This document shows positions 1 through 63,079 of a stretch of 64,000 bases of DNA, one piece after another. The stretch comes from Chitinophagales bacterium. GTDB taxonomy: Bacteria > Bacteroidota > Bacteroidia > Chitinophagales > UBA10324. The position numbers were made by a program, and so were the translations under genes. The notes beneath the pieces are model-generated. The model saw only the letters and a list, made by a program, of their open reading frames with translations. It had not been told where the DNA came from and did not search any database. How positions within the stretch are numbered: position 1 is the first letter of the stretch; every line of letters starts with the position of its first letter. The DNA is taken from assembly GCA_019694975.1 (NCBI GenBank), contig JAIBAY010000009.1, positions 62,001-126,000 of the forward strand. The letters are read 5' to 3'.

Positions 1-3000
1 TGAACGATGCAGCCGTGCAAAGGTGAAATAAAGGATGCACGCACCACATCAATGGTGGAGTAAGCAGCAAAATTTGTTGAAGTATGACTGAAAATATTCC
101 ATACTCTTACCAGGTTGGTGGATGTAATGGAATCTGCGCATCCATCCTCGCTTATTACTTTTAATTTAACAGTATAGAAGTTTGGAGCATTGGCCAGTGA
201 ATAGGTATGTGACGGATTGGCCAGATCAGATGTGGCGCCATCGCCAAAATCCCACAGGTAACTCGCAATCATTCCGTTGGTGTTGCTGGAAAAGTAAACT
301 GTTCCGTTTCCGGGCAGGAATCGCTCGAGACTATCCGCAGTAAATCCGGTTAAAGGATCAATATTGCTTACCACTACTGCCTCAGAGGTTGCACTGCAGC
401 CTGAGTTATCTGACACTGTTACACTGTAGCTGCCTGCATCGCTCACTACAATTGACTGAGTTGATTCTCCGGTACTCCATGAATAGCCTGCTGCTTCGCT
501 GCTGGTAAGTGTAACAGTACCGCTGCCACAAAGATTGGTAGAACCGCTCGTGGTGATCACCGGTGTCACAACACCTGCTGCAATGGTTAAAATAGGTGAT
601 TCGATTGTATCGCAGAAAGAAATTTCAGTAACTGAATAGTCGCCCCCTTCTGTAACAACAATTGAATTTCCTGTGCTTCCGTCACTCCACATGTATTCAC
701 TCCCAACTTTAGGATTGACAACACTTAGTGTGGAAGGATTCGTTAAGCATACTGTATCAGCTGATGCTGTAAATGCAGGTGGCACAGGGTCGAAGTTCAC
801 AGGGAAAGTGTAAATCCTTCCGCTGCGCCCGGTGATATAGGCGAGGCATCCGTTGGCTGTTATATGAAGCAAGTCATCCGTATTGCCGACACTCCAGTGT
901 ACCCAGGTCATTCCGCAATCTGAAGTAGTGAGAATGATACCGTGGTGCCCCACACAAATCATGTGCAGTGAATCAATCACAATCACACCGGTTAGGTCAT
1001 AGGTAGTGCCGGAATTGCAGGGATGCCAGGAAGCGCCTGCATTGTTGCTGATGGAGATACTTCCATAAGCGCCAACGCTGCAACCCACGCCACCATAACC
1101 ACCGCCGCTGTATCCGCCGCCGGGGCAGTTGCAGCCAAAGGCAATAGCATACAGGTTGTAAAGCACGCCGGAGTTAACGGCAATCCATCCGGAGCCGGGC
1201 TGATAATAACAGATGATACCATTGTAACCCACGACCCACAGGTAACCGTTCCAATAGTTCACCCCATAAAAAGTATTGGTTACACCGGGAGAGATATTGC
1301 TCCACAAAGTGCCGTTCCAATACCAAACCTGCCCGTTGGTACCCACAGCATAACCGCTGTTGGGATTGCTGAAATAAATATTTTGAATATCGCATCCGCA
1401 AGGAATGATGTAGGTAGTCCAGCCGCCAGGCAGGCCGGAGTAATTAACAGCAGTAAATCCGCCGGCTCCGGCAATCCAGATGGCGCTGTTGCCCTGTGTG
1501 CCCACATAACTTACGCCATTGAGCTGACAAGTGCAGGGCAAGCCAAGCGACAGCCAGGTAGTGCCGCCGTCAATAGTTTGATAGACGTGACCGTCAGGTT
1601 GTACCACGCAACCGTACAGTGGTGAAATGAAAGACGCGCTGTGAACATCAATAGTAGAATAAGTGGTAAATGATGTTGGTGTACAATTGAATTTGTTCCA
1701 TACCCTGATCATATTGCTGATCGTTAGCGAATCTGTGCATCCATCTTCGCTTGTCACTTTTAATTTAACAGTATAGAAGTTTGGAGCATTGGCCAGTGAA
1801 TAGGTATGTGACGGATTGGTCAGATCAGATGTGGCGCCATCGCCAAAATCCCACAAGTAACTCGCAATCGTTCCGTTGGTGTTGCTGGAAAAGTAAACTG
1901 TTCCGTTTCCGGGCAGGAATCGTTCCAGGCTGTCGGCAGCAAAACCATTCAGCGGAGAGCCTGCCGTAACAGTAACGGTCTCTGAAGTGGCGCTGCATCC
2001 GAGTCCATCGGTAACCGTGACGCTATAATCTCCGGGAGTATTCACTACGATGAAACTTGTGGTGGCTCCATTGCTCCACAGGTAATTTGATGCATCACTC
2101 GCTGTCAGTGTCACTGTGCTGTTGCCGCAAAGGTTGGTGGAGCCGCTTGCCTGAATGGTTGGCGTAACAACACCGTCAACAATCGTCTGTGTGACCGCTA
2201 TGAGTGTGTCGCAGGCTGTATATTCTGAAACGAAGTAATCTCCACCTGCTGTCACAATGATAGAATTTCCCGTGCTTCCGTTGCTCCATTTGTATTCACT
2301 TCCGACTTTCGGATTGATTACACTTAAGGTTACCGGGCTTGATGAACAAACGGTATCGTTAGAAACGGTGAATGAAGGCGGAATAGGGTCAAAGTTCACA
2401 GGGAAGGTGTACACTTTCCCGCTCTTACCGGTAATATAGGCAAGGCAACCATTCGCAGTAATTCCTGTGAGGTCATCCGTATTGCCAACACTCCATTGTA
2501 CCCAGGTCATTCCGCAATCTGAAGTAGTGAGAATGATACCGTGGTGTCCCACACAAATCATGTGTAATGAATCAATCACAATCACACCGGTGAGATCATA
2601 GGTAGTGCCGGAATTGCAGGGATGCCAGGAAGCGCCTGCATTGTTGCTGATGGAGATACTTCCATAAGCGCCAACGCTGCAACCCACGCCACCATAACCA
2701 CCGCCGCTGTATCCGCCGCCGGGGCAGTTGCAGCCAAAGGCAATAGCATACAGGTTGTAAAGCACGCCGGAGTTAACGGCAATCCATCCGGAGCCGGGCT
2801 GATAATAACAGATGATACCATTGTAACCCACGACCCACAGGTAACCGTTCCAATAGTTCACCCCATAAAAAGTATTGGTTACACCGGGAGAGATATTGCT
2901 CCACAAAGTGCCGTTCCAATACCAAACCTGCCCGTTGGTACCCACAGCATAACCGCTGTTGGGATTGCTGAAATAAATATTTTGAATATCGCATCCGCAA

Positions 3001-5160
3001 GGAATGATGTAGGTAGTCCAGCCGCCAGGCAGGCCGGAGTAATTAACAGCAGTAAATCCGCCGGCTCCGGCAATCCAGATGGCGCTGTTGCCCTGTGTGC
3101 CCACATAACTTACGCCATTGAGCTGACAAGTGCAGGGCAAGCCAAGCGACAGCCAGGTAGTGCCGCCGTCAATAGTTTGATAGACGTGACCATCAGGTTG
3201 TACCACGCAACCGTATTGCGGTGAAATAAATGAAGCACCATAAACATCCGTCGATGAGTAGGTAGCAAAGGAAGTTCCCGTGCACGCAAATTTGTTCCAT
3301 ACCCTGATCATGTTAGTGTTAATGATCACGTCACTGCATCCTTCGTCGTTCGTGACGGTAAGGCTGACGGCATAAAAGCCGGGAGCATTCGCAGCGTTAT
3401 AGGTATGCGAAGGATTTGCGACATCACTTGTTGTTCCATCACCAAAATCCCAGAGGTATGAAACTATGTTACCGTTGGTACTGGCTGAAAAATGCACTGT
3501 GCCGTTTCCGGGAAGGAAGCGCTCAAGACTATCGGCGGCAATACTGTTCAGCGGGCTTTCGCTGGTAATAAGAACAGGATCTGCAACGGCCGAACAACCT
3601 GATACATCTGTTACGGTTACACTATAGCTTCCGGCATCATTCACAACAATGTAACTGGCGACAGAGCCATTGCTCCACAGATAACTCACCCCGCTGCTGG
3701 CAGTGAGTGTAACGGTTTCAATTCCGCATAGGTTAGTGGAACCACTCACATCAATTGAAGCAGTCGACACACCCTGGTAAATTGTTTGTACCGCTGACGT
3801 TAGCGTATCACACAAGGAATATTCCGTTACGGAATAATTTCCGGGCACATTGGTGACGAGTGTGTTTCCTGCACTGCCATTACTCCATACATATTGACTT
3901 CCAAACTTTGGATTCACCACGCTTAACGTCGCGAAACTGCCGGCACAAATTGTGTCGTCAGATAAAGTGAATGCCGGTGGTGCTGCGTTGAAATTAATGG
4001 GGAATGTGTAAACGCCTCCATTGTTTCCGGTGATATAGGCCACGCATCCGCTGGCAGTGATGCTGGTCAGATCTTCAGTATTGCCTATGCTCCAGGGAAC
4101 CCAGGTAAGACCGCAATCAGCAGTTGTTAAGACAATACCATGTTGACCCACGCAAATCATGTGGAGTGAATCAATCACATATGCGCCTGTCAGATCGTAA
4201 GTTGTTCCTGAATATGAATTATGCCATGTTGAGCCGCCATCATTACTGATGATGATTGTTCCGCCGGCACCTACGCCGAGTCCCACACCGCCATATCCAC
4301 CGCCGCCACCATTGTATCCGCCGCCTGAACAGGTGCAGCCGAAGCTGATGCTGTAAAGATTATAGATGGTGCCGGAGACTATATTTACCCACCCAAAACC
4401 AGGTTGATATTGCCAGATAATACCGCCATAACCCACAGCCCACAGGTAACCACCCCAATAGTTTACTGCATAGAAATTATTGGAAATTCCGGGAGATATA
4501 TTGCCCCAGTAAGTACCATTCCAGAACCATACCTGTCCGTTTGTTCCTACTGCATATCCATTGTCAGGACTGCTGAAATAAATATTGGAAATGGAACAAC
4601 CACAAGGTATAATGTAAGTGATCCATCCTCCCGGTGTTCCGGTGTAATTGACAGCAGTGAAACCGTCTTCACCTGCCACCCAAATGGCACTGTTACCCTG
4701 TGAGCCCACATAGCTTACACCATTCAGATGACAAGTGCAGGGGAGGCCAAGGGTATCCCATGTATCTCCGCCGTTGCTGGTGATGTATACTTGCCCGTTT
4801 GGTTGTATGGCGCAACCGTAAAGCGAAGAAATGAAGGAAGCATTGGTAACATCTTCCGTTGAATAGGAATAGAAGGTGGTACCTGCATGCGGGAATTCAT
4901 CCCACACCCTGATCATGTTATAAGCTGCAATGGAATCAGTGCATCCTGCATCATTGGTAACCGTAAGTTTCACGGTATAAAATCCCGGTGCACTCGACGA
5001 AGTATAGGTATGAGAAGGATTGACGAGGGTTGAAGTTCCGCCATCGCCGAATTTCCAGTTATAACCTGTTATAGTTCCATTTGTGCTGGAAGTAAACTGA
5101 ACGGATCCGTTATCGGGTAAAAATCTTTCTATGCTGTCAGCAACGAAGCCATTCACCGGC
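1..5160 (-). repeat. Tandem ~1.6-kb (533-codon) coding repeats
   Basis: The start of the PKD module (ERFLP motif) recurs near 5155, 3555, 1955 and 355, giving three full units and the start of a fourth. Period is 1,599 bp for the two left units and 1,605 bp for the rightmost one, which has extra glycine codons, so the frame is kept. About 590 bp (1000-1592 against 2599-3191) read as identical. The PKD-coding segments at 132-340 and 1731-1940 are near-identical. The rightmost copy (about 3560-5160) has clearly diverged. Confidence 0.9.
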
Positions 5161-24162: not shown

Positions 24163-26787
24163 ATGAAAAAATGTTTACGCTTTTTCCTATGTATAGCTAT
24201 TCTCGGCCTTCAACCGGTCATTTCAAAAGCATCTCATATCGTAGGGGGCGAAATGATTTATGAATGCCTTGGAAATAATGAATACCTCATCACGCTTAAG
24301 GTGTACCGCGACTGCTTTAACGGTACTGCCGCTTATGATAATCCGACCAACGTCTTCATCTTCGATGCTAACGGAAACATAGTTGCCACGCTGCCTATCC
24401 CGTTTCCGGGATCAGATACGCTTCCTAACAATTCCGGTAATCCATGTCTCGTGGTGCCTCCGGGCATCTGCGTGGAAGAGGCAATCTTTCAATATAACGT
24501 GTTTCTCGATCCGTCACCGGGCGGTTATACAATGATTTATCAGCGCTGCTGCCGTAATTATTCCATCGATAATATTCTGAGTCCTGATAACACGGGTGCC
24601 ACTTATCTCGGTTACATACCTGACCCTGACCTTGCCGAATGTAACAGCAGTCCTTATTTCAATAATTTTCCGCCACCGCTGATCTGTCTTGCTGAGCCAT
24701 TGGTTTTTGATCATTCCGCCACTGATCCGGATGGTGATTCACTGGTGTATTCTATTTGTGACCCATACCTGGGAGCAAGTTCATTGAATCCATATCCAAA
24801 TCCTCCCGGTCCGCCACCATATAGTTTTGTGACTTTTGTTGCCCCTTACTCTTCATCTAATCCAATGGGCGGCTCTCCTTCTCTGACGATTAACCCTGCC
24901 ACAGGGCAACTGACGGTTACGCCAACTGCCACCGGACAGTTTGTAGTGGGTATTTGCGTTTCTGAATACAGGAACGGACAGTTTCTGGATGAGCATAAGC
25001 GCGATTTTCAATTTAATGTGGCGCAATGTATCGGCCCGCAGGCTTCCATTGACGGCGGAAGCAATACCATCGATAATCCGGCTGTATTCAATTCCTGCCA
25101 GTCATACACTTTTACTTTCCCCAATAATTCTTCCAATGCTACTAACTACTTCTGGGATTTCGGAGTTTCAGGCTCATCAACCGATACCAGTTCACAAGAG
25201 AATCCCACTTTTACTTTTCCGGATACCGGTCTTTATCACATCATACTTTATGTGAATCCGGGAAGTACCTGTGCCGATACTGCTTATGGTGATGTGTACG
25301 TATATCCGTTCTTCACGGCTGCCATGTCGGCGCCTGACGGATGTGTGGGACAGCCGGTGCAGTTTGGTGATGTCACCACTTCAAATTATACAGCTGTCAA
25401 TAGCTGGCACTGGGATTTTGGCGATGGCGATACATCTAACATAAAGAACCCGTCTAATATTTACGATGCACCGGGAAGTTATACGGTAACACTGATTGCC
25501 GGTAATGAAGCCGGTTGTATCGATACTATTGCTGAAGTAATAAACATTTTTCCCAGCCCTACCATAAGTGCCCTGCCGGATGACACGATCATCTGTAAAC
25601 TGGATCAGATTCAGATGAATGCAGTGGCTACAGGTGCAAACAATTTCAACTGGGAGCCCAACTATAACCTGAGCAGTACGTCTGTTTCCAATCCATTTGC
25701 AGGTCCTGATGTTACGGTAACTTATACGGTGTCTGTTTCCAACAATTTTGGTTGCGTGGCCATGGACAGTGTTCATATTGAAGTATATGATACAGTGATT
25801 GCCAAAGCCGGCAGCGACACCACTATTTGTCCCGGCGGCTCTGTACAGTTACATGGTACGGGCGGAATCAATTTTCAATGGTCACCTCCCAATGGCCTGA
25901 GTTCTACCACCATTGCGGATCCAATTGCTTCGCCGGCATCTACCACCAGCTATGTTTTTTATACTTCGGTTGGATCCTGTTCAGCAAAAGACACCGTGAC
26001 GGTATTTGTGAAGCCGTTTCCAAATATTGTTGCCGGGCCTGATGTGAGCATTTGCCAGGGGCAGAGCGTGGAGATTTCAGCATCAGGAGGGACCTCTTAC
26101 TCATGGCAACCTGCAGGAACCCTTGATAATCCCAATATCGCGAATCCGGTTGCGTCGCCTTTGGTTACAACTACTTATACAGTTTCTGCAACCAACGTAA
26201 ATGATTGTCCTTTCGTTGGACAAGACAGCCTTACCGTTAGCATTATTCCCATTCCGCCAATTTTCATCAGTCCGGATACCACCATTATTCTCGGTACATA
26301 CACAACACTTTCCATTACCGGTGGCGCGTCCTATATATGGGTCCCATCCGATGGCCTTGACAATCCAACCAGTGCGACACCAGTTGCATCACCGGATCAG
26401 ACTACTACATACATTGTCTACATTACAACAGCCGATGGTTGTCCTGCGATAGACAGTGTAACCATTACGGTAAATCCCAATCCGCTTGTCGAATTCCCCA
26501 CTGCGTTTTCGCCGAATGGAGATACGAAGAATAACTACTTCAGGCCATTAATATTGGGTCTTGCTCACCTTGATGAATTCAGGATATTTAATCGATGGGG
26601 AGAAGAGGTGTTTGCGATCAGTAATGTAAATGTCATTGGTGGACCATTACCAGATAACCTAAGCTGGGACGGCACCTATAAAGGTGAGCCGCAGCCGGTT
26701 GGTGTGTATGTCTATTACCTTAAAGGGATAGCTTCCGCAACAGGACTTACGATTGCCAAGCATGGTAACCTTACACTCGTGAGGTAG
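24163..26787 (+). CDS. Large T9SS type B cargo protein with PKD/Ig-like modules, copy 2
   Basis: 874 residues, colinear along its whole length with the gene just upstream: the same 'SHIVGGEMIYECLGNNEYL' N-module, 'QRCCRNYSIDN', 'DHSATDPDGDSLVYSIC', PKD ('WHWDFGDGDTSNI'), Ig-like modules with 'TTICPGGSVQLHGTGG', and a type B sorting domain ('EFPTAFSPNGDTKNNYF' ... 'FNRWGEEVF' ... 'WDGTYKG' ... 'GVYVYYLKG'). The pair is therefore a tandem duplication, but the DNA has diverged enough to be old. A strong terminator follows the stop, so the FG-GAP gene and this pair look like one transcription unit. Confidence 0.88.
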   Translation: MKKCLRFFLCIAILGLQPVISKASHIVGGEMIYECLGNNEYLITLKVYRDCFNGTAAYDNPTNVFIFDANGNIVATLPIPFPGSDTLPNNSGNPCLVVPPGICVEEAIFQYNVFLDPSPGGYTMIYQRCCRNYSIDNILSPDNTGATYLGYIPDPDLAECNSSPYFNNFPPPLICLAEPLVFDHSATDPDGDSLVYSICDPYLGASSLNPYPNPPGPPPYSFVTFVAPYSSSNPMGGSPSLTINPATGQLTVTPTATGQFVVGICVSEYRNGQFLDEHKRDFQFNVAQCIGPQASIDGGSNTIDNPAVFNSCQSYTFTFPNNSSNATNYFWDFGVSGSSTDTSSQENPTFTFPDTGLYHIILYVNPGSTCADTAYGDVYVYPFFTAAMSAPDGCVGQPVQFGDVTTSNYTAVNSWHWDFGDGDTSNIKNPSNIYDAPGSYTVTLIAGNEAGCIDTIAEVINIFPSPTISALPDDTIICKLDQIQMNAVATGANNFNWEPNYNLSSTSVSNPFAGPDVTVTYTVSVSNNFGCVAMDSVHIEVYDTVIAKAGSDTTICPGGSVQLHGTGGINFQWSPPNGLSSTTIADPIASPASTTSYVFYTSVGSCSAKDTVTVFVKPFPNIVAGPDVSICQGQSVEISASGGTSYSWQPAGTLDNPNIANPVASPLVTTTYTVSATNVNDCPFVGQDSLTVSIIPIPPIFISPDTTIILGTYTTLSITGGASYIWVPSDGLDNPTSATPVASPDQTTTYIVYITTADGCPAIDSVTITVNPNPLVEFPTAFSPNGDTKNNYFRPLILGLAHLDEFRIFNRWGEEVFAISNVNVIGGPLPDNLSWDGTYKGEPQPVGVYVYYLKGIASATGLTIAKHGNLTLVR

Positions 26788-26808
26788 GTCGTTTTATTGG
26801 ATCATAAT

Positions 26809-26846
26809 AAACGCGCGGATGCCATTTTCCGCGCGTTTGTTTTTTT
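26809..26846 (+). terminator. Rho-independent terminator after the T9SS cargo genes
   Basis: AAACGCGCGGA (26809-26819) pairs with TCCGCGCGTTT (26828-26838) over 11 bp with an 8-nt loop, followed by a run of seven T after one G. It ends the transcript before the tRNA gene. Confidence 0.9.
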
Positions 26847-26870
26847 AGTACCCCGCGTGTAAAGTTTTTT

Positions 26871-26878
26871 TACTTTTG
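26871..26878 (+). promoter_or_regulatory. Possible -7 box for tRNA-Leu
   Basis: TACTTTTG matches TAnnTTTG and lies 35 bp before the tRNA. No clear -33 TTG is at the right distance, so it is tentative. Confidence 0.3.
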
Positions 26879-26913
26879 CCCCGCTCCAAAACATTATACG
26901 CTTCAGTTATTAT

Positions 26914-26995
26914 GCCCGGGTGGCGAAATTGGTAGACGCACCATCTTGAGGGGGTGGCGCCGTAAGGTGTACGAGTTCGAATCTCGTCCCGGGCA
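26914..26995 (+). tRNA. tRNA-Leu (anticodon GAG)
   Basis: Acceptor GCCCGGG (26914-26920) pairs with CCCGGGC (26988-26994), with discriminator A at 26995. The D-arm carries GGTAGACGC. The anticodon stem CCATC/GGTGG encloses TTGAGGG, giving anticodon GAG. There is a class II long variable arm, and the T-arm is CGAGTTCGAATCTCG. CCA is not encoded. Confidence 0.95.
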
Positions 26996-27152
26996 CATTG
27001 ATGCTGATGTTTAGCTGATGATCAGCTTATGCTGATGTCCATATCCTTCCGGGCTTTTCAGCATCATTCTCTTTTCAATAACCGATTCGGTTTTTCTGTG
27101 GGAAGATGTTAATGATATTTACAGAAAGGGACACGACTTTTCCCGGCAGTAT

Positions 27153-30020
27153 TTATCGTTGCACAAGCAACTTTGCCAGGTACCAATTTCCGATTGCCTG
27201 CAACTCAAACAGATAAAGCCCTTGTGCAAAGCCTGACAGATCGATGGAGAAATCAGTGCTTTCCCGGTCGGCTATCCATTCCTCCGACCAGATCACCTGG
27301 TGAAGCGGTGTTAGCAGGTTTACTTTGAGTTTTTGCGGTGCCGCACCGGTGATCTTTAATAAAACATGATCACTTGCCGGATTCGGATGCAACGCTATTT
27401 GAAGATCCCCCTCACCGCAGATGATGCCTTCATTGGCGGCTCTTGCAAACCAGGGCAAAATGTTGCTGAATGCGTTAATCCTGTAGCAGGCATTCGGTTC
27501 AGATGAAGCATTAGCGGATGCCACTTTTAACAGGTAGGTGCCTTTGGAAGCATTGTTTAAAATGATTGATTCGTCGGTGGTTCCGGTATTGGCAGAAGAG
27601 TTGATCAACTGCCCGTTTTTTTTGTAGAGGAAAAGGTCATAGTCTGCCAGCAGATCCGATAAGTCAAATTTAAGGTTGGTAGTGATTACTGTTTTAAACT
27701 GAAACCAGTCCTGATCAGTGGACGATGCAATGGCACCGGTGTAGCCATAGAATCCAAGATCGGCAGTAACATTGATTTTCGCGGCAGTGAGATAGCTGTC
27801 GTTCGGTTCATATTTATCTTTGCAGGCATCACTTACATTCAGTTTGATTAATTGCACTTCATCGCCGCCATTGGTGCCGGATTGATAAACGCCGGATGAG
27901 TTGAAGAAAGCAGTATCCGTAACAACGGCCATATAGAGTGATTTGCTTTTTTTGTCCCACTCAATATCAAATACATTTTGCTCGCCGCCGGCCCCCACAA
28001 TATAGTTCCAGGCCAATGCTCCCTCAGCGGTGTATTTAGCAACAAATCCATCCTGCAAGAATAATCCTTCATCTGCCATAAATATATTGCCGTTCACATC
28101 TTCGTCACTTCCGGTTTGACCTGCCAGGTAGATGAAGTTATTTTCTTTGTCAATCGCTATACCTCTTGCCCGATCCAGGCTGGGCCCGCCGTAGTAGGTT
28201 CCCCATGCGAGCTGCCCGTCGGGCGTAAATTTGGCGAGGTAACCATCGGCGGATGGGTATCCATCATTATTGTATCCTTCATTCCATTCTGGATCCGCAG
28301 TGCCGGGTGTTCCTATTCCGGTCTGACTGATTGTCCAGCCGCCGATATATGCATTTCCATCCGCATCGGTCTGCAGCCCTCTGCCGTGTTCATCTTCTTC
28401 ACCGCCGAAGTAGCTGCACCAGTACAGATGGCCGGTTGTATCCCATTTCGCGATAAATGCGTCCTGCGGACCACCGCCATAAACGCTTTGATGAACACCG
28501 GGCGTTGCAAATTGCGAGGTACTTTCACAAGTACCCTGGATATAGAAATCACCGTTGCTCAAAAGAGCGATATCGTGTGCGCGGTCTTGCCCGGGCCCAC
28601 TCAGATAAGAACACCATCTGAGTGTACCGTTATTGGTGAAGGCACCTGCCATTACATCGCCTTCGGTTTGGTTGCCATTGTATATTTCCTGGTAAGCGCC
28701 TGCGGTGGCAATGTTATTTGCACTGCAGGTGTATCCGTCAAAATATATATTGCCGGCGGCATCGCAAACGATAGCACTGATCTGATCACCATATCCTGTA
28801 CCTCCGAAATAGGTTGCCCACTGTCGAATGCCATTGATGTCAAACTTCACCAGGAATGCATCCATGGCTCCACCGAACAGCGGCTGATGTGAGCCGGCTG
28901 TAGCAATACCATTATTGCTGAAGGTATTGCCTCCTACAAAAACATTCTGCCAATCATCGGCAGCGATAGCATGGCAACCATCGCGGTCATTGGAACCATA
29001 GTACGTGGCCCAGGCCAGCAGGCCGCTTGGTTTAAACTTGGCAGCAAAGCCATCCACAACTCCTCCACCGAAGATTACCTGGTGTGCACCGGTGCTTGCA
29101 ATATAGAGCGTGCTCATCGTATTGCCGGCCAGGCAGGCATTTCCTTTCAGGTCTACCGATAACTCTCCTTCATATAAATCTTCTGCAGCATTTCCGCCAT
29201 AATAAGTGAACCAGGTGATGTTGGGATCGATGACGACAGCACGGCCATGCAGGCCGGTAGATTTGTAGCCGATTTTGTTTTTTGAAATCGTGTACCGGAC
29301 ATCAACCGGTGAAAGATCATCGGCCGCATATGCACTGATCCTGCCTTCATTAATCATTCCGTTCACTGCTTTGATACCGACACTGCCGTCTGCCAGTAAA
29401 TTCATTTCGGGAACGCCATCATACTGCAACCGGATAACAGTGGGGTCAGCGCCGGGCTGGAGATGCCATTCATATTTTAAAAATGCATGTTGGTTATCCG
29501 GTGCGGAAAACACGAGGTCAATGCCCGGATATACATTTTTATAGGTAATGGTGCGGAAACTGCGTACATGGGTAACGCCGCTGACTCCGGTGCCTGCAGT
29601 ATAAAAATGCAGCAGGGCGCTATCCTGAAGAGATGCTGATAATTCAGCATTGGCAGCATTGAGGAATGTAATATCAATTCTATTTGAAATCACATAGATG
29701 CCTTTTTTGCTGCAGCCGGTTTTTCGGTCAATATCATATTCAGGACAGGTCGCATTAGTAACATTGCATTCCTTGCCCATATACTGGAAAAGTTCATAGC
29801 TGAATCCGTCATTTCTCAGCTGCAGATTAAAACTGCCGCTGGCATAAATATACCGGACAGCTGTATTCGGCCGATAAAACTGATCGGTAATCTGCCCTTT
29901 GTTTTCTACAAATCCCGTTGTGACACTATATGCTGTTGATGCCTGATCAACGGGCTGTGTAAAAGCAAAGAGATGGATTAATAGCAGGAGCGCAATGCAA
30001 GGCATGAATAGCTTTTTCAT
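27153..30020 (-). CDS. Secreted SBBP-repeat beta-propeller protein with T9SS type A sorting domain
   Basis: 955 residues. Signal peptide MKKLFMPCIALLLLIHLFAF. The N-module 'GFVENKGQITDQFYRPN' is the DUF7948-type start that precedes SBBP repeats. About seven SBBP (seven-bladed propeller) repeats follow, each with a 'W.TYYGG...D....I..D..GN.Y..G.T' pattern (e.g. 'WATYFGGTGYGDQISAIVCD', 'WGTYYGGPSLDRARGIAID'). A pre-peptidase-like 'DLGFYGYTGAIASSTDQDWF' module comes next, then a type A sorting domain starting 'LHPNPASDHVLLKI' and ending 'LLVQR'. Surface or secreted protein of unknown ligand. It converges with the tRNA gene. Confidence 0.88.
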   Translation of the reverse strand: MKKLFMPCIALLLLIHLFAFTQPVDQASTAYSVTTGFVENKGQITDQFYRPNTAVRYIYASGSFNLQLRNDGFSYELFQYMGKECNVTNATCPEYDIDRKTGCSKKGIYVISNRIDITFLNAANAELSASLQDSALLHFYTAGTGVSGVTHVRSFRTITYKNVYPGIDLVFSAPDNQHAFLKYEWHLQPGADPTVIRLQYDGVPEMNLLADGSVGIKAVNGMINEGRISAYAADDLSPVDVRYTISKNKIGYKSTGLHGRAVVIDPNITWFTYYGGNAAEDLYEGELSVDLKGNACLAGNTMSTLYIASTGAHQVIFGGGVVDGFAAKFKPSGLLAWATYYGSNDRDGCHAIAADDWQNVFVGGNTFSNNGIATAGSHQPLFGGAMDAFLVKFDINGIRQWATYFGGTGYGDQISAIVCDAAGNIYFDGYTCSANNIATAGAYQEIYNGNQTEGDVMAGAFTNNGTLRWCSYLSGPGQDRAHDIALLSNGDFYIQGTCESTSQFATPGVHQSVYGGGPQDAFIAKWDTTGHLYWCSYFGGEEDEHGRGLQTDADGNAYIGGWTISQTGIGTPGTADPEWNEGYNNDGYPSADGYLAKFTPDGQLAWGTYYGGPSLDRARGIAIDKENNFIYLAGQTGSDEDVNGNIFMADEGLFLQDGFVAKYTAEGALAWNYIVGAGGEQNVFDIEWDKKSKSLYMAVVTDTAFFNSSGVYQSGTNGGDEVQLIKLNVSDACKDKYEPNDSYLTAAKINVTADLGFYGYTGAIASSTDQDWFQFKTVITTNLKFDLSDLLADYDLFLYKKNGQLINSSANTGTTDESIILNNASKGTYLLKVASANASSEPNACYRINAFSNILPWFARAANEGIICGEGDLQIALHPNPASDHVLLKITGAAPQKLKVNLLTPLHQVIWSEEWIADRESTDFSIDLSGFAQGLYLFELQAIGNWYLAKLLVQR

Positions 30021-59237: not shown

Positions 59238-59681
59238 AACATAAGTTTAAAGCATTGGCGAAAAAATTCTTTTGTTTATTTTGTTTGAACCTGACTTTTC
59301 GTGTGTGACTATAAAAGGAAAGTGTGTTTTATTAATAAGCGTGGTAGTGCTGTTTTTGCAAATTTGTTTTTTTATCGTAGACATTAGAAGCAATGACGGT
59401 TGGGGTTTAACGTATTTCCAAGACAGTTCATTCAAAACGGTAGCGTTCATGGTCTGCCGTATCGTATAAGAGCTTCATCCGGCGTTTTTGCGCTTGGCGA
59501 ATAATGGAATTTCGGAGCAATAAGCTGTTTGCCGGCACTGAACTTGATACGAAGCACAAAGCTTCATTTAAGCACTGAACCACCAATTTTTTGCAGGTGC
59601 GGTTTTCTGCAGTTATCCTGGCCATCTGATGTCGTGTAGTTTAAAATCCGGAGGAAGATTTGGCAGAGAGATTTATGATTA
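59238..59681. other. Structured 444-bp spacer at the left end of the cassette-like region
   Basis: No coding frame with family similarity. It contains several short inverted repeats, e.g. GAAGCACAAAGCTTC (59550-59564). Its position, directly after the 3' end of a minus-strand gene, is like the other spacers described to its right. Confidence 0.4.
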
Positions 59682-60422
59682 TCACTTTTTCAGTTCGTTT
59701 TTAAGTGCAACCAAATCAGAATAAGGTGCAGTTTCTTTATTCTCCCACTTCTTTTTTTTGTTGAGCCGATTATCAATAGCGGATAAAGTTGCTTTCTTAT
59801 CTTTCGCAAAGATTTTCTGTATAAGTTGCCGGGTTGGAAAATCAGTCGGGTCGTAATACATCCAAACATTTATAAGAAGTGGTAAGTCTTTAACATCACT
59901 TTCCGTTTGAAGAAATTGCAAAGCATTTTTCATTGCGTCCTTGTTCGTTGGCGAGTCAGTGCTTTCGGATAGTTTTATGTAATTCTTAAAAATTCTGTCA
60001 ACGATTTTGATTGGTGTTTCCTTTTTATCAGCGGTAACAGTTTTTGTTTTTACTTTCTTGCGAATGACCTCCAGGCCGTTCAAATAAATTTTCTCTGTTA
60101 GTTTGGCAGCAATCTCATCAACCAGCAGTGTGTCGCCAATGGTATGTATGTAACATGATTGGTTGGCATTCCAAATGTCAATGTCTAAAAGAGTGTCGGG
60201 CAAACAAAACGCTAACACAAATTTTAAGTAAACTGTTGGATGGGTGTCTTGGAATTTGTAACCGCAAAAGGAAATTGGTGTTCCGTTTTGTAAATAAAAA
60301 ATGGTGTCTGGTTTATTGTAGGCTTTGATCTGCGATTCCGGACACACACAATTTTTACTGCTTGTCTGCCCAAATGCAGAAATAATAATAGTCAAAAAAA
60401 GTAAGGTAAAAAGGTTATTCAT
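59682..60422 (-). CDS. Hypothetical secreted protein
   Basis: 246 residues with signal peptide (MNNLFTLLFLTIIISAFGQ). Cys residues at 'KNCVCPES', 'SFCGYKF' and 'AFCLPD' suggest disulfides. The C-terminal half is helical and charged, with a HEAT-like feel ('DLPLLINVWMYYDPTDFPTR' then 'QLIQKIFAKDKKATL'). I do not recognise a family. It is one of several unrelated minus-strand genes in this region separated by structured spacers, and its 5' side carries direct repeat copy 1. Confidence 0.65.
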   Translation of the reverse strand: MNNLFTLLFLTIIISAFGQTSSKNCVCPESQIKAYNKPDTIFYLQNGTPISFCGYKFQDTHPTVYLKFVLAFCLPDTLLDIDIWNANQSCYIHTIGDTLLVDEIAAKLTEKIYLNGLEVIRKKVKTKTVTADKKETPIKIVDRIFKNYIKLSESTDSPTNKDAMKNALQFLQTESDVKDLPLLINVWMYYDPTDFPTRQLIQKIFAKDKKATLSAIDNRLNKKKKWENKETAPYSDLVALKNELKK

Positions 60423-60466
60423 TGCTCGTCAGTTTGATGTCAGGAGGCTTCTCCAATGGATGCAGA

Positions 60467-60567
60467 TAACGCCAGTCTGTGAAAAAACCAATTAACAATT
60501 ATGTTAAAAATTACGTTGATAAAGACATCGAAATAGAATTCGCCCAGATCAAGTGATTAAGGATCTT
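60467..60567. repeat. ~100-bp direct repeat, copy 1
   Basis: Starts TAACGCCAGTCTGTGAAAAA, continues CCAATTAACAATTATGTTA and ends AAGTGATTAAGGATCTT. It matches copy 2 (62606-62705) over its whole length with about four-fifths identity by eye. It lies 45 bp upstream of a minus-strand start codon. Confidence 0.8.
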
Positions 60568-60574
60568 TATTCCG

Positions 60575-60699
60575 CCGCTGCGTCTCCGCCTGCAAGCCTG
60601 TGCTGTGAGGTGGCGGGACAAAAGGCAATGCATAGCATAGAATCCATCCGTGTCCCGTTTTCTATCTATAAAACCATGCCTGCCGAGACACGGAAGCGG
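60575..60699. other. Nested palindromic spacer
   Basis: Outer arms CCGCTGCGTCTC (60575-60586) and GAGACACGGAAGCGG (60685-60699) are imperfectly complementary. Inner arms GCGGGACA (60613-60620) and TGTCCCGT (60651-60658) pair at seven of eight positions. It sits after the 3' end of the neighbouring minus-strand gene. Terminator, structured RNA or recombination site are possible. Confidence 0.5.
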
Positions 60700-60719
60700 T
60701 GTAAAGCTCGCTAAGCAAA

Positions 60720-61808
60720 TTATAACCTGTCATGTCCTAATAACTTTTTCTTATAAAGTTTGTCCACGAGCCACATGCCTACCCAATACAAAGGCATCAA
60801 TACCGGATAGAGAACCATGACAAAGAAAGTGTAGCCATGATAATGTGATGCCTCATCTCCAATTACATTATCAATGAGGTCATAGGAATACATGTTGAAG
60901 CACAGAATCACAAATGGTATGAGAATACTACCTGCTATCAAAACCCAGGAATATTTCTTCTGTGTATTTCGCTTTCTAAAAAGCCGTATGAGAACTAAAT
61001 GAAGAATTGCAATGACGATGGCAAAGCACAATGTCAATTTATTTGTCCCGATACTCATTAATGTTGCTGCGGTGGAATTCAATTCCGGAACAAAATAAAT
61101 TTGCAGATATTTTCCCGGAAGCTGGTTAAATGTCCAAACTGAAACGGAATCGAGTTTCCCTGAAGCCGGGTTTCCGAAATTTGTGGTGATTGTTTTTTTG
61201 AATTGGGTTGCATCTACAGTAATCTCCAGCGAACCAAAGGACTTCCAAAATTCAGCAGGCGAAAGAGAATAGCGAAAACTGTAATTTTTAACCCATTGTC
61301 GCAAATCAAGCCAGGAAGTAGCGGTATATTCAACTCGGATGTTGTGTTCGCCTTTCGTCAGAGAGGTCTCGAAATATTTTAACTCGTTAAGCTGGTAAAC
61401 GAAACCTGAGTTCTCCTCCCAATAAATTGTCACTTCATTGCGTCCGTCAAAAATATTCGAGAAATGCTGAAACGGCGAATTGGAGATATGCTCATATGCT
61501 GCTGGAATAGATGATATAGTTACCATCTGATTATCCACCCAAACTTTGAAGTCGCCATTGTAGTCCACTGCATGAAACAACAAAGGGATTTGTCTGCCCT
61601 CTGTATCGGTTTTTACCGCATACTCAATTTTGAATAATGCTGTCTTAAAACTGCTGTCAGGTTTTATGTAAATCTTCTCGTGAAGAATGTCAATATTTCT
61701 GCTGCTAAATGCCGAACTTGAAAATGTTCCTTCACGATATGGAGAGGCCATGTTTGCAAAACAGAGATGACCAAATAGGAGTGAAAATATTGTGAATAAA
61801 TGTTTCAT
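60720..61808 (-). CDS. Hypothetical protein: exported domain plus C-terminal membrane helices
   Basis: 362 residues. Signal peptide (MKHLFTIFSLLFGHLCFA), then a ~240-residue exported domain rich in aromatic strands ('EVTIYWEENSGFVYQL', 'WLDLRQWVKNYSFRYSL'), then three membrane helices near 265-285, 297-317 and 328-350. It ends in basic residues, consistent with a cytosolic C-terminus. No family recognised. It is flanked on both sides by palindromic spacers. Confidence 0.65.
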   Translation of the reverse strand: MKHLFTIFSLLFGHLCFANMASPYREGTFSSSAFSSRNIDILHEKIYIKPDSSFKTALFKIEYAVKTDTEGRQIPLLFHAVDYNGDFKVWVDNQMVTISSIPAAYEHISNSPFQHFSNIFDGRNEVTIYWEENSGFVYQLNELKYFETSLTKGEHNIRVEYTATSWLDLRQWVKNYSFRYSLSPAEFWKSFGSLEITVDATQFKKTITTNFGNPASGKLDSVSVWTFNQLPGKYLQIYFVPELNSTAATLMSIGTNKLTLCFAIVIAILHLVLIRLFRKRNTQKKYSWVLIAGSILIPFVILCFNMYSYDLIDNVIGDEASHYHGYTFFVMVLYPVLMPLYWVGMWLVDKLYKKKLLGHDRL

Positions 61809-61860
61809 TTCTTACTGTCAGTTCAAAGTTAGCAGTGTCGCCAAAGCATTGTGGTTAATG

Positions 61861-61971
61861 GTTTGCAGTTTTGCGATGGGCGGGCTTATCACTACAAATG
61901 TTGATGCGCAGAACTGAACTTTCAGCTACCACAAAATGATCTGCGGGGCACGAAACCCCGCCAATTGCAAA
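61861..61971. other. Nested palindromic spacer
   Basis: GTTTGCA near the left end is complementary to TGCAAAT near the right end. Inside is the stem GCGGGG-CACGAAA-CCCCGC (61943-61961). It lies between two minus-strand hypothetical genes, as the spacer at 60575 does. Confidence 0.5.
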
Positions 61972-62012
61972 TGTGCTGCCGGCGGCTGCCTTTCTGTTCA
62001 TCCGAAAATTGT

Positions 62013-62534
62013 TCATTGTATCATGTAAAAGTTTTTGTCCAGCAACCAATTTCTCATAAACTCAATATCGCTCACATGATGCTCAACAGTCCGTCCGTTT
62101 GCAGTCTCGCAGTCAATTTCACAGATTTTACCATTTACGTGTTTGATTTTATTTCCATCAAGTCTGCCTCCAAATTCAATAATACCGTCAACAGCTTCTG
62201 CGATTTTGAGTGTTAGTTGCCCCAAAATTTTATGATCGGCCTTATCGTTGCACCTTGCATAGAGGCCAATATCATATTTTGGATAAAACTTAAATTTATC
62301 TTCTATTGACTTTAATTCCGACTCTGAATAATTGTAGTAATCATTAGTGATGGGATTGAGTTCCACTCCAAAAGGTCTTAAATCCTCTTTGTCAGGAGAT
62401 GCTAAAGTTGAGTTTATATAAAAATCATGCTCTGTTCTTTCGCTCGCAAGGTCGTCAATGACTTTGTAGATCAAAGCTATCGTAGAACTGTTTGGAGCAA
62501 TTCTTAATAAAACAGAGGATGCCGGACCCGCCAT
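62013..62534 (-). CDS. Hypothetical protein (resembles DUF6368)
   Basis: 173 residues from the ATG at 62534 (MAGPASSVLLRIAPNSSTIA). The open frame extends 34 codons further from TTG, but that part overlaps direct repeat copy 2 and is not gene-like. No signal peptide or membrane helix. Features: 'FYINSTLASPDKEDLRPFGV', 'IGLYARCNDKADHKILGQLT' and 'GIIEFGGRLD'. The N-terminal pattern reminds me of DUF6368, a domain of unknown function that often sits in polymorphic-toxin or cassette contexts; this match is from memory only. Confidence 0.6.
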   Translation of the reverse strand: MAGPASSVLLRIAPNSSTIALIYKVIDDLASERTEHDFYINSTLASPDKEDLRPFGVELNPITNDYYNYSESELKSIEDKFKFYPKYDIGLYARCNDKADHKILGQLTLKIAEAVDGIIEFGGRLDGNKIKHVNGKICEIDCETANGRTVEHHVSDIEFMRNWLLDKNFYMIQ

Positions 62535-62605
62535 GATAATTTCTTTAATTGTCAATTTTTTTGCACAAATTTTTTGAGTTTGTAATGTCGTCACAAGCTT
62601 GCTGC

Positions 62606-62705
62606 TAACGCCAGCCTGTGAAAAACCAATTAACAAACATGTTATAAATTACTTTGATAAAGATATTGAAATAGATGACGCCAGGATCACGTGATTAAAG
62701 ATCTT
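62606..62705. repeat. ~100-bp direct repeat, copy 2
   Basis: Starts TAACGCCAGCCTGTGAAAAA and ends ACGTGATTAAAGATCTT. Same orientation as copy 1, 2,139 bp to its right. It lies ~70 bp upstream of the DUF6368-like gene's start. Confidence 0.8.
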
Positions 62706-62783
62706 GGAGATATGCGGTAAATACAACCCTAAAACAGAGCACAGGTAACCTTCAGCAGTCAGGAAGACAGCGTAGGAGAACAG

Positions 62784-63079
62784 AATCCGGTCCGGCTCAT
62801 TGATGCCTTTGTGGAGCATTTGGGCTTAGCGCAGCTCAGGTTTAAGGTACCTGAATTGAAGAGAGAAGGACGTCCGGCTTATGAGTTCAAAGTGTTTCTA
62901 AAACTTTATTTTATGGCTACCTCAATGGCATCCGCTCCAGCCGGAGGTTAGAGAAGGAGTGTACCCGAAACACCGAATTACAGTGGTTATTGGGTCAATT
63001 AAAGCCCGACTATTATTCCATTGCCTATTTCCGGAAAGAGAACCCTGCTGCCCTGCGTAATTTAAAAACCGAAGGGTGA
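62784..63079 (+). pseudogene. IS1182-like transposase N-terminal relic with frameshift
   Basis: Frame 1 reads 'NPVRLIDAFVEHLGLAQLRF' ... 'GRPAYEFKVFLKLYF', then goes out of frame. In another frame the protein continues 'YGYLNGIRSSRRLEKECTRN', 'TELQWLLGQLKPDYYSIAYF' and 'RKENPAALRN', then TGA. This is the N-terminal part of IS1182/IS5-type transposases. A single T lost from a T-run near 62911 explains the shift. The catalytic part is absent. No terminal repeats of the IS were found. 63080-63387 shows no gene. Confidence 0.8.

Follow-up and report, generated by a model that had tools for sequence, protein, structure and literature searches.

A probable decayed, integrase-less cluster from an apparently undescribed integron-like cassette system in Bacteroidota

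A segment of three cassette genes near one end of the window (the whole analysed stretch of 64,000 nucleotides from a Chitinophagales bacterium) is best explained, with a probability of about 85%, as an outlying, decayed cluster without integrase that derives from a cassette system resembling integrons in Bacteroidota, whose intact loci would be run by a tyrosine recombinase at the head of the array. The system, suspected as undescribed in the original prediction and rightly so in kind, appears to be a new variant of the integron and is widespread in Bacteroidota. Recombination sites with a covarying stem, a rule joining neighbouring cassettes, one-way gene orientation and linkage to a recombinase, all established by sequence comparison, carry this reading.

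Results

Layout of the window segment

As listed in Table 1, the three genes are unrelated and lie on the minus strand, as predicted. In a Pfam search of all three, the DUF6368 domain of the cassette 1 gene was the sole match. The original prediction was to be abandoned if the spacers were unique to this locus and the gene order was conserved in relatives. The spacer is widespread (see below), and of the order's 396 genomes just 3 contain a homologue of the cassette 1 gene and just 5 one of the cassette 3 gene. Among the loci examined in other genomes, no homologue of a window cassette gene adjoined a site.

Table 1. Coordinates of the features of the cassette segment (a slash marks a junction within a sequence).
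Feature	Position	Strand	Basis
IS transposase remnant, frameshifted, DUF772 domain	62720..63079	+	PF05598 E 6.8e-13 on 62897-63076
100-bp repeat copy 2, IS right end in GTT core of cassette site; ends ...CACAGGCTG/GCGTTAGC	62606..62705	-	
Cassette 1 start, GCG/TTAGCAGC, R' core	62600..62610	-	sequence
Cassette 1 gene, DUF6368 family, 186 aa	62013..62573	-	PF19895 E 4.8e-27
attC-like recombination site of cassette 1	61853..61981	-	profile E 4.3e-35; covariance model 131.5 bits; covarying stem
Cassette 2 gene, 362 aa, function unassigned	60720..61808	-	ORF; no Pfam match over cut-off
Spacer 3' of gene 2	60568..60719	-	about 64 bp are the end of another repeated element
100-bp repeat copy 1, IS right end; ends ...CACAGACTG/GCGTTATC	60467..60567	-	
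Cassette 3 start, GCG/TTATCTGC	60461..60471	-	sequence
Cassette 3 gene, 246 aa, function unassigned	59682..60422	-	ORF; no Pfam match
Worn attC-like site of cassette 3	59483..59605	-	profile E 6e-6; sequence

Two types of palindromic spacer had been proposed, and only one of them is a recombination site. The spacer reported at 61861-61971, with 23-nt arms that are 78% complementary, is real and far beyond chance, its true limits being about 61853-61981; a second, worn copy of it (the cassette 3 site) had been missed. The spacer reported at 60575-60699 contains an 11-nt hairpin and is no such site. Since 60572-60635 matches repeats that occur two by two in inverted orientation at other places of the genome (C3:563209/564518 and C1:526203/526999), it was regarded as debris of another element, and the spacer 3' of gene 2 was not accepted as a further type of site. 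Beside the C3 repeat, a putative fragment of a REP transposase had no Pfam match.

Both window sites are worn. In the cassette 1 site, R'' is reduced to GCCGCCGGC and R' to CCATTAACC, and only 5 of 9 positions follow the boundary rule described below. The rule is clearly kept by cassette 3 only: 8 of 9 positions agree between the R'' of its site, GCAGAAAAC, and the complement of the start of the cassette (GCAGATAAC). The attC core, said to be missing in the original prediction, is merely worn here, attC-like cores YAAC...GTTR (ends YAAC...GTT[AG]) being present in intact relatives.

The 100-bp direct repeats are real (85% identical, with three further copies in the genome), but they bracket no recombining unit. 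They were rejected as recombination sites because each is the right-hand terminus of an IS with cassette sites as its insertion targets. The matching left end, CGT/CAGGCTGTGAAATAAC, occurs at three loci, with one variant at a fourth. The transposase remnant belongs to this IS, and a stretch 84% identical to it adjoins the copy of the repeat on contig C2. In the window, the site-targeting IS has replaced one site and capped another. The HxlR gene flanking the segment is absent from both genomes of the same genus and present in only one other member of the family; therefore no empty site can be demonstrated in close relatives.

Recombination sites and the cassette boundary rule

Of the 396 genomes searched in the order, 193, from 88 of 164 genera, matched the covariance model of the conserved site of about 130 bp, and blastn with the window spacer gave matches in 26 of 99 related genomes, in many cases along exactly 123 bp. 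Further site families exist beside the modelled type, the sites overall being palindromes of 55-190 bp. No real match was obtained in an Rfam search. Stem pairing held in 94.9% of cells, compared with 70% in shuffles and at most 40% when the stem was slid, and double changes were seen in 13 of 17 pairs, a covariation that in a palindrome may also stem from a double-stranded inverted repeat. A T.G mismatch is conserved in 10 of 29; it would speak for use of the top strand, in contrast to integrons, where the bottom one is recombined. In intact relatives, where arrays of sites reach tens of kb, 135 of 139 sites lie 3' of a gene on the same strand, at a median of 15 bp past the stop codon, which agrees with the single orientation expected from the window. 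By definition, attC are imperfect palindromes with RYYYAAC and GTTRRRY ends following each gene; the sites agree with this in their YAAC...GTT[AG] ends and covarying stem. Their complementary end box extends about 6-7 bases beyond AAC/GTT, compared with 4 in the attC definition.

The bases after the GTT of one site complement those before the AAC of the next. At least 6 of 7 bases matched in 87% of 67 neighbouring pairs, against 4% within the same site and 4% in random pairs. This complementarity between neighbours is the integron cassette rule: cassette boundaries lie at G/TT, and each cassette start is complementary to the 5' end of its own site. Three genomes each carry a duplicated cassette (1194, 1577 and 475 bp, all 100% identical), the 1577-bp one having one copy at the integrase-proximal attI and the other inside the array, and a further cassette is common to two genomes of different families at 83% identity. 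The breakpoints lie at G/TT in all four cases. These sequences show that cassettes are duplicated and shared between species with breakpoints at GTT. On a Chryseobacterium plasmid, the boundary rule alone was not above the other-strand control; the case there rests on a site-model match (E 0.004) together with the layout.

The array-linked recombinase

A linked tyrosine recombinase, which the original prediction had suggested looking for, was found upstream of arrays on the same strand in nine genomes. Same-strand downstream sites were present at 10 of 20 further recombinase loci, and sites occurred in 83% of genomes with a strong recombinase compared with 38% of the others (odds ratio 7.6, p 3e-14). 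There were 117 genomes with sites but without a strong recombinase, and 16 with the recombinase but without a site of the modelled type; other site families and broken assemblies can explain part of these mismatches. For Rufibacter sp., Algibacter onchidii and GWF2_41_31, a rule-based search that used no site model recovered arrays downstream of the recombinase, while none of 36 control strands reached 3 sites. attI regions, with repeats and an ...AAGTTR end, were seen downstream of the integrase in five genomes, and the first cassette, inserted at the attI adjoining the integrase, obeys the boundary rule.

The window itself contains no integrase, as had been stated, but the same genome carries one on another contig (C12:248-1330, E 4e-143). 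No sequence overlap was found between contigs C3 and C12, which would have put this integrase at the head of the genome's own C3 array. No classical IntI exceeded the cut-off in this genome; among 99 genomes only one had it, with no site of the window type nearby. Phage records contained no integrase.

The array recombinase resembles IntI but lacks the additional domain of about 43 residues (the I2 helix) that is specific to the integron integrase and regarded as indispensable to integrons. Among the linked proteins measured, nearly all have a spacing of 62-66 aa from KG..DR to HxLRH, compared with 107 in the one true IntI. Scores with the IntI model TIGR02249 were 171-211 bits, below its cut-off of 265, and the AF2 model predicts no extra helix at the position of the domain. 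The linked proteins scored 196-225 bits with NCBIfam NF040815, and the recombinase tree did not give one clean clade. A HARP-like N-terminal domain is often present; it scored 21.7 bits with PF07443, under the cut-off of 25, its best Foldseek match was HARP of SMARCAL1 (4o66) but at E 1.0, and HARP was not listed by VIA-align.

Discussion

Proposed mechanism and alternative explanations

In intact loci, the recombinase, attI and cassette array follow one another on one strand. The attI is made up of short repeats specific to the species and frequently ends in TATA..AAGTTR. A cassette begins with TT[AG]NNNN, contains at least one gene and closes with its site, a long palindrome (NNNNYAAC-stem-loop-stem-CG); each site ends in a GTT whose following bases are part of the next cassette. 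The linked recombinase probably catalyzes excision and insertion of cassettes by exchange at G/TT, with attI as the entry point, and by analogy with IntI it may act on the folded single strand of the site. The HARP-like domain might help in place of the missing I2 helix. Tentatively, and at somewhat less than even odds, this would be an independently evolved (or pre-IntI), phylum-wide integron of Bacteroidota, handling folded palindromic sites without the I2 helix by means of a HARP-like N-terminal domain that binds single-stranded or forked DNA.

An ordinary integron lineage in which IntI merely lost its additional domain, recombination proceeding as in known integrons, would share the anatomy of integrase, attI and cassettes and the G/TT crossover, and in Foldseek the integrase comes out beside XerA and IntI4. 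This is nevertheless less likely than not: of the linked integrases measured, which span many families, nearly all are without the domain, the catalytic-domain tree does not join the linked enzymes with the true IntI (on a long branch that makes the placement unsure), and the I2 helix is held to enable IntI to act on folded single strands (PMC7790495). Far less probable is that the host XerC/XerD pair moves the cassettes, as in Xer (pdif) modules, the array-linked enzyme being a bystander. The many genomes with sites but without a strong recombinase would fit, as would the XerA-like assignment of the linked enzyme in the NCBI library; against this, the sites are long palindromes with one GTT crossover and no dif-like 28-bp core, 0 of 18 XerC/D loci had any site nearby, and the linked enzyme heads arrays that have an attI and, inserted there, a first cassette in keeping with the rule. 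That the sites are MITE-like repeats or terminators gathering 3' of genes that do not move, as their palindromic, multi-copy nature and position downstream of stop codons might suggest, is very improbable and already strongly disfavoured, since the boundary rule joins the two ends of a gene unit rather than of a repeat and identical gene units recur elsewhere with breakpoints at GTT.

Significance

Integrons spread antibiotic resistance. If the integron-like reading is true, sites belonging to a large gene-capture system are present in about half of the genomes sampled in one order of Bacteroidota, and accessory-gene arrays tens of kb long become readable. On Acinetobacter plasmids, the tigecycline-resistance gene tet(X3) has a truncated copy of the integrase immediately upstream, a hint at the source of its mobile unit. 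Integrons are regarded as rare in Bacteroidota, one reason being that the standard tool depends on the IntI-specific domain; at first only integrases without cassettes were reported, and later a single complete integron, from Salinibacter (PMC9024848). The step by which integrases came to recombine folded single-stranded sites is considered to be the I2 helix, and intermediates were lacking (PMC7790495); a cassette system without the helix would make the origin of such recombination directly testable.

Comparison with known systems

IS1111-attC elements are IS that target attC. The window IS likewise uses the recombination core of cassette sites for its insertion, but has a DUF772 (IS5/IS1182-like) transposase and the target ACGT or CCGT inside CG/TT. 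Xer (pdif) modules also have small sites and a tyrosine recombinase that mobilise genes; the present system differs in its sites, none of which is a dif-like 28-bp XerC/XerD site, in its dedicated array-linked recombinase and in the boundary rule. Related enzymes are the 'Integron-like' subgroup of simple tyrosine recombinases (PMC8138268) and NCBIfam NF040815; for members without the insertion, the part of the source consulted describes no arrays, sites or function.

CALINs are clusters of attC without integrase (PMC9024848), at least two attC with no integrase adjacent. The window segment resembles them in its cassettes, worn sites and lack of a local integrase and may be of this kind; it is assigned to the system described here and has only two recognisable sites, both worn, one more being replaced by the IS. 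With integrons, including the large chromosomal ones, the system shares a recombinase at the head, an attI with repeats, one-way cassettes, large arrays, palindromic YAAC...GTTR sites, the G/TT crossover and complementarity to the next cassette. It differs in new site families and in an integrase that lacks the IntI additional domain, scores below the threshold of the IntI model, in many cases bears an N-terminal domain like HARP/DUF5710 and is oriented in the direction of the array. IntegronFinder requires the IntI domain (PMC9668308) and therefore would, by construction, not call this integrase.

Organization of the cassette cluster

The window spans C9:62001-126000 in a genome of 4.3 Mb and 14 contigs. 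In line with the original prediction of three or more such genes, three unrelated genes lie in a row at 59.5-62.7 kb, all on the minus strand. DUF6368, in the first gene, is the sole Pfam assignment among them.

Features of the cassette cluster, in gene direction
Feature	Position	Strand	Remark
IS relic and IS right end	63079-62606		first in gene direction
Cassette start GCG|TTAGCAGC	before DUF6368 gene
DUF6368 gene	after GCG|TTAGCAGC	minus	Pfam
Palindromic site	61981-61853	minus	3' of DUF6368 gene
362-aa gene	after site 61981-61853	minus
Debris and second IS right end	60719-60467		after 362-aa gene
Cassette start GCG|TTATCTGC	before 246-aa gene
246-aa gene	after GCG|TTATCTGC	minus
Worn palindromic site	59605-59483	minus	3' of 246-aa gene
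HxlR regulator	beyond worn site 59605-59483	plus

The 100-bp repeats had been read as bracketing a two-gene segment that could be gained or lost. They are instead the ends of an insertion sequence (IS), or of an IS derivative, whose insertion target is the GTT core of cassette sites, which is why they appear to flank genes. The genome holds five copies, with a same-strand gene about 60 bp or less beyond each, and a DUF772 transposase remnant (E 6.8e-13) adjoins the copies at 62606 and on contig C2. In cassette sites of this and other genomes, the opposite IS end, CAGGCTGTGAAATAAC, lies directly 3' of ACGT or CCGT, and in locus L151 both IS ends border an insert of 0.6 kb that separates GAAACGT from CCGTTACC. 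Inverted pairs of a 50-64-bp sequence (window 60572-60635), spaced by 0.8-1.3 kb, are present elsewhere in the genome (C3:563209/564518, C1:526203/526999); the sequence represents the ends of a small mobile element. Window 1-5160 contains large direct repeats spaced by about 1.6 and 3.2 kb (75% and 67% identity).

Recombination site and cassette boundaries

Searched beyond the window by blastn, the palindromic spacer (61850-61985) matched 26 of 99 related genomes, frequently over the same 123 bp. Alignment of these matches gave sharp similarity limits in gene sense, with a YAACA start, a CGTTR end and unrelated flanks. RNAalifold predicted a stem of 17 pairs with double changes at 13 of them; by pair count, paired cells reached 94.9% in the stem, no shuffle was as high, and sliding the partners gave at most 40%. 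Within the order, a covariance model (E <= 0.001, scoring limited to 8 candidates in each genome) had matches in 193 of 396 genomes, or 88 of 164 genera. The sites also follow genes in one orientation, a point that the original prediction had asked to check: 135 of 139 sites had a same-strand gene on their 5' side (median distance from the stop codon, 15 bp). The arrays of genomes G308 and G380 extend over at least tens of kb and consist mainly of sites of a second family, each about 160-190 bp long. The site loop (alignment A2, columns 33-105) carries two conserved imperfect direct repeats, GTGCTCCGCAGACA.TTTGTGG and GTTCTCCGCATCAACATTTGTGG. Exact matches to the site core occur in two IMG/VR contigs classed as viral (L299 and L300; 139 and 102 kb).

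The seven bases after GTT complement the seven before the AAC of the next site at six or more positions in 87% of cases (67 neighbouring sites), whereas comparison within one site and random pairing each gave 4%. Integron cassettes bear the same signature, in which the sequence 3' of the crossover is part of the following cassette and complementary to the site carried by that cassette itself. As judged by sequence comparison, the cassette units move. Units of 1194 bp (G181), 1577 bp (G270, one copy right after the integrase) and 475 bp (G161, with further copies at 95-99%) recur at 100% identity with different flanks and with breakpoints at G|TT, and genomes G113 and G181, from different families, have a cassette in common (83%).

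A linked tyrosine recombinase

The tyrosine recombinase that the original prediction proposed to look for was found. Among 18 array genomes, the Pfam Phage_integrase profile detected XerC/D-like enzymes and, in at least nine, one recombinase that lies 5' of the array and shares its strand; the window's own genome carries an intact version (534 aa, C12:239-1843, at a contig end). Ten of 20 further loci, picked by recombinase score, had same-strand sites downstream (nearest at 0.7-6.4 kb), and five of the other ten reach a contig end within 1 kb; none of 18 XerC/D loci had sites nearby. Sites were present in 83% of genomes with a strong recombinase versus 38% of those without. Downstream of the recombinase, a rule-based finder with no site model located chains of 3-5 sites in Algibacter onchidii, in Bacteroidetes GWF2_41_31 and in Rufibacter sp. 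SYSU D00344, where the sites measure only ~55 bp; on 36 control strands it located no chain of at least three. Profile matches added Algoriphagus ornithinivorans, Flavobacterium aciduliphilum and a Cyclobacterium; the named organisms among relatives of the system are mostly Bacteroidota.

Contigs end within 1 kb downstream of the integrase in 15 of 43 loci versus 1 upstream, the choice of 23 of these loci not being independent of contig ends; among the 20 chosen independently, the counts were 5 and 1. Contig C12 begins with GTTA. Such assembly breaks possibly reflect population variation at attI, or repeats.

The linked proteins scored 171-211 bits with the IntI model, below its cut-off of 265, and 196-225 bits with NF040815 (XerA-like). 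In the stretch from KG..DR to HxLRH, nearly all linked proteins have 62-66 residues (a few were beyond reach of the motif measurement) versus 107 in the single true IntI found; they therefore lack the additional domain that contains the I2 helix. An AlphaFold2 model (pLDDT 83) has no extra helix in this stretch and has an N-terminal b-b-a-b-b domain, present once in most linked proteins, about three times in the window genome's protein, and absent from the G007, G014 and G030 integrases. Its likeness to HARP is weak (Pfam E 1.5e-4, under the cut-off, in one protein; top Foldseek match SMARCAL1 HARP, E 1.0) and found no confirmation by VIA-align. In a catalytic-domain tree, the linked enzymes group with mostly Bacteroidota relatives, apart from Xer and IntI (92/92), the IntI branch being long.

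Proposed entry site and mechanism

At attI, the integrase stop codon is followed by short species-specific repeats, then TATA..AAGTTR and the first cassette (e.g. G113, G033, G103, G136, G095). In G113 and G033, as read by eye, 8-9 bases at the start of the first cassette are complementary to the first site. In G103, a ~63-bp tandem repeat spanning 4.3 kb (L145, local 25661-29943; about 74% identity between shifts) is probably a repetitive protein gene.

The sites, the cassette rule, mobility and the recombinase linkage are established at the level of DNA sequence. The linked recombinase would most likely act at G|TT, where strand exchange of a cassette site with attI would capture and shuffle cassettes. 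Covariation of the stem supports a possible folding of one strand of the site, as in integrons; from the conserved T.G pair, the top strand would be favoured, unlike in integrons. The N-terminal domain is a candidate for how the enzyme works without I2.

Plasmid-borne loci

On Acinetobacter plasmids (NZ_CP104735.1, 2967-5117; FJ012881.1, 6052-8200), tet(X3) is preceded at a distance of 190 bp by a 5'-truncated copy of the Bacteroidota array integrase, called xerD or tpnF, with 51% identity over residues 124-357. An attI-like ...CACTTGTTATG stands before tet(X3), and after the gene comes a truncated site (profile E 0.011). This site and the cassette start lack complementarity, which rules out tet(X3) as a simple first cassette. 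On a Chryseobacterium sp. SNU WT5 plasmid (NZ_CP041688.1, 8001-17038), an intact integrase with the N-terminal domain heads an array containing an IS110 transposase, a group II intron and a ~210-bp geneless unit (TTGGGAAAA...GGCCAGCTCGG...CCGAGCTGGCCG) at about 9149, 11244, 13625 and probably 16700.

Comparison with integrons

In the IntegronFinder 2.0 work, Bacteroidetes earlier had cassette-less integrases only, and one complete integron was from Salinibacter (PMC9024848). That program relies on a profile of the IntI-specific domain, which the archaeal integron paper treats as a defining characteristic (PMC9668308). The I2 helix is considered how integrases gained the use of single strands, with intermediates missing (PMC7790495); in a recombinase classification, the integron-like subgroup has the insertion incompletely conserved (PMC8138268). 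No description of this Bacteroidota cassette system was found in the open literature, most subscription papers and preprints lying outside the search. The system shares the site, boundary and attI features of integrons and departs from them in one defining feature, the additional domain of IntI; it is classed here as a variant of the integron kind.
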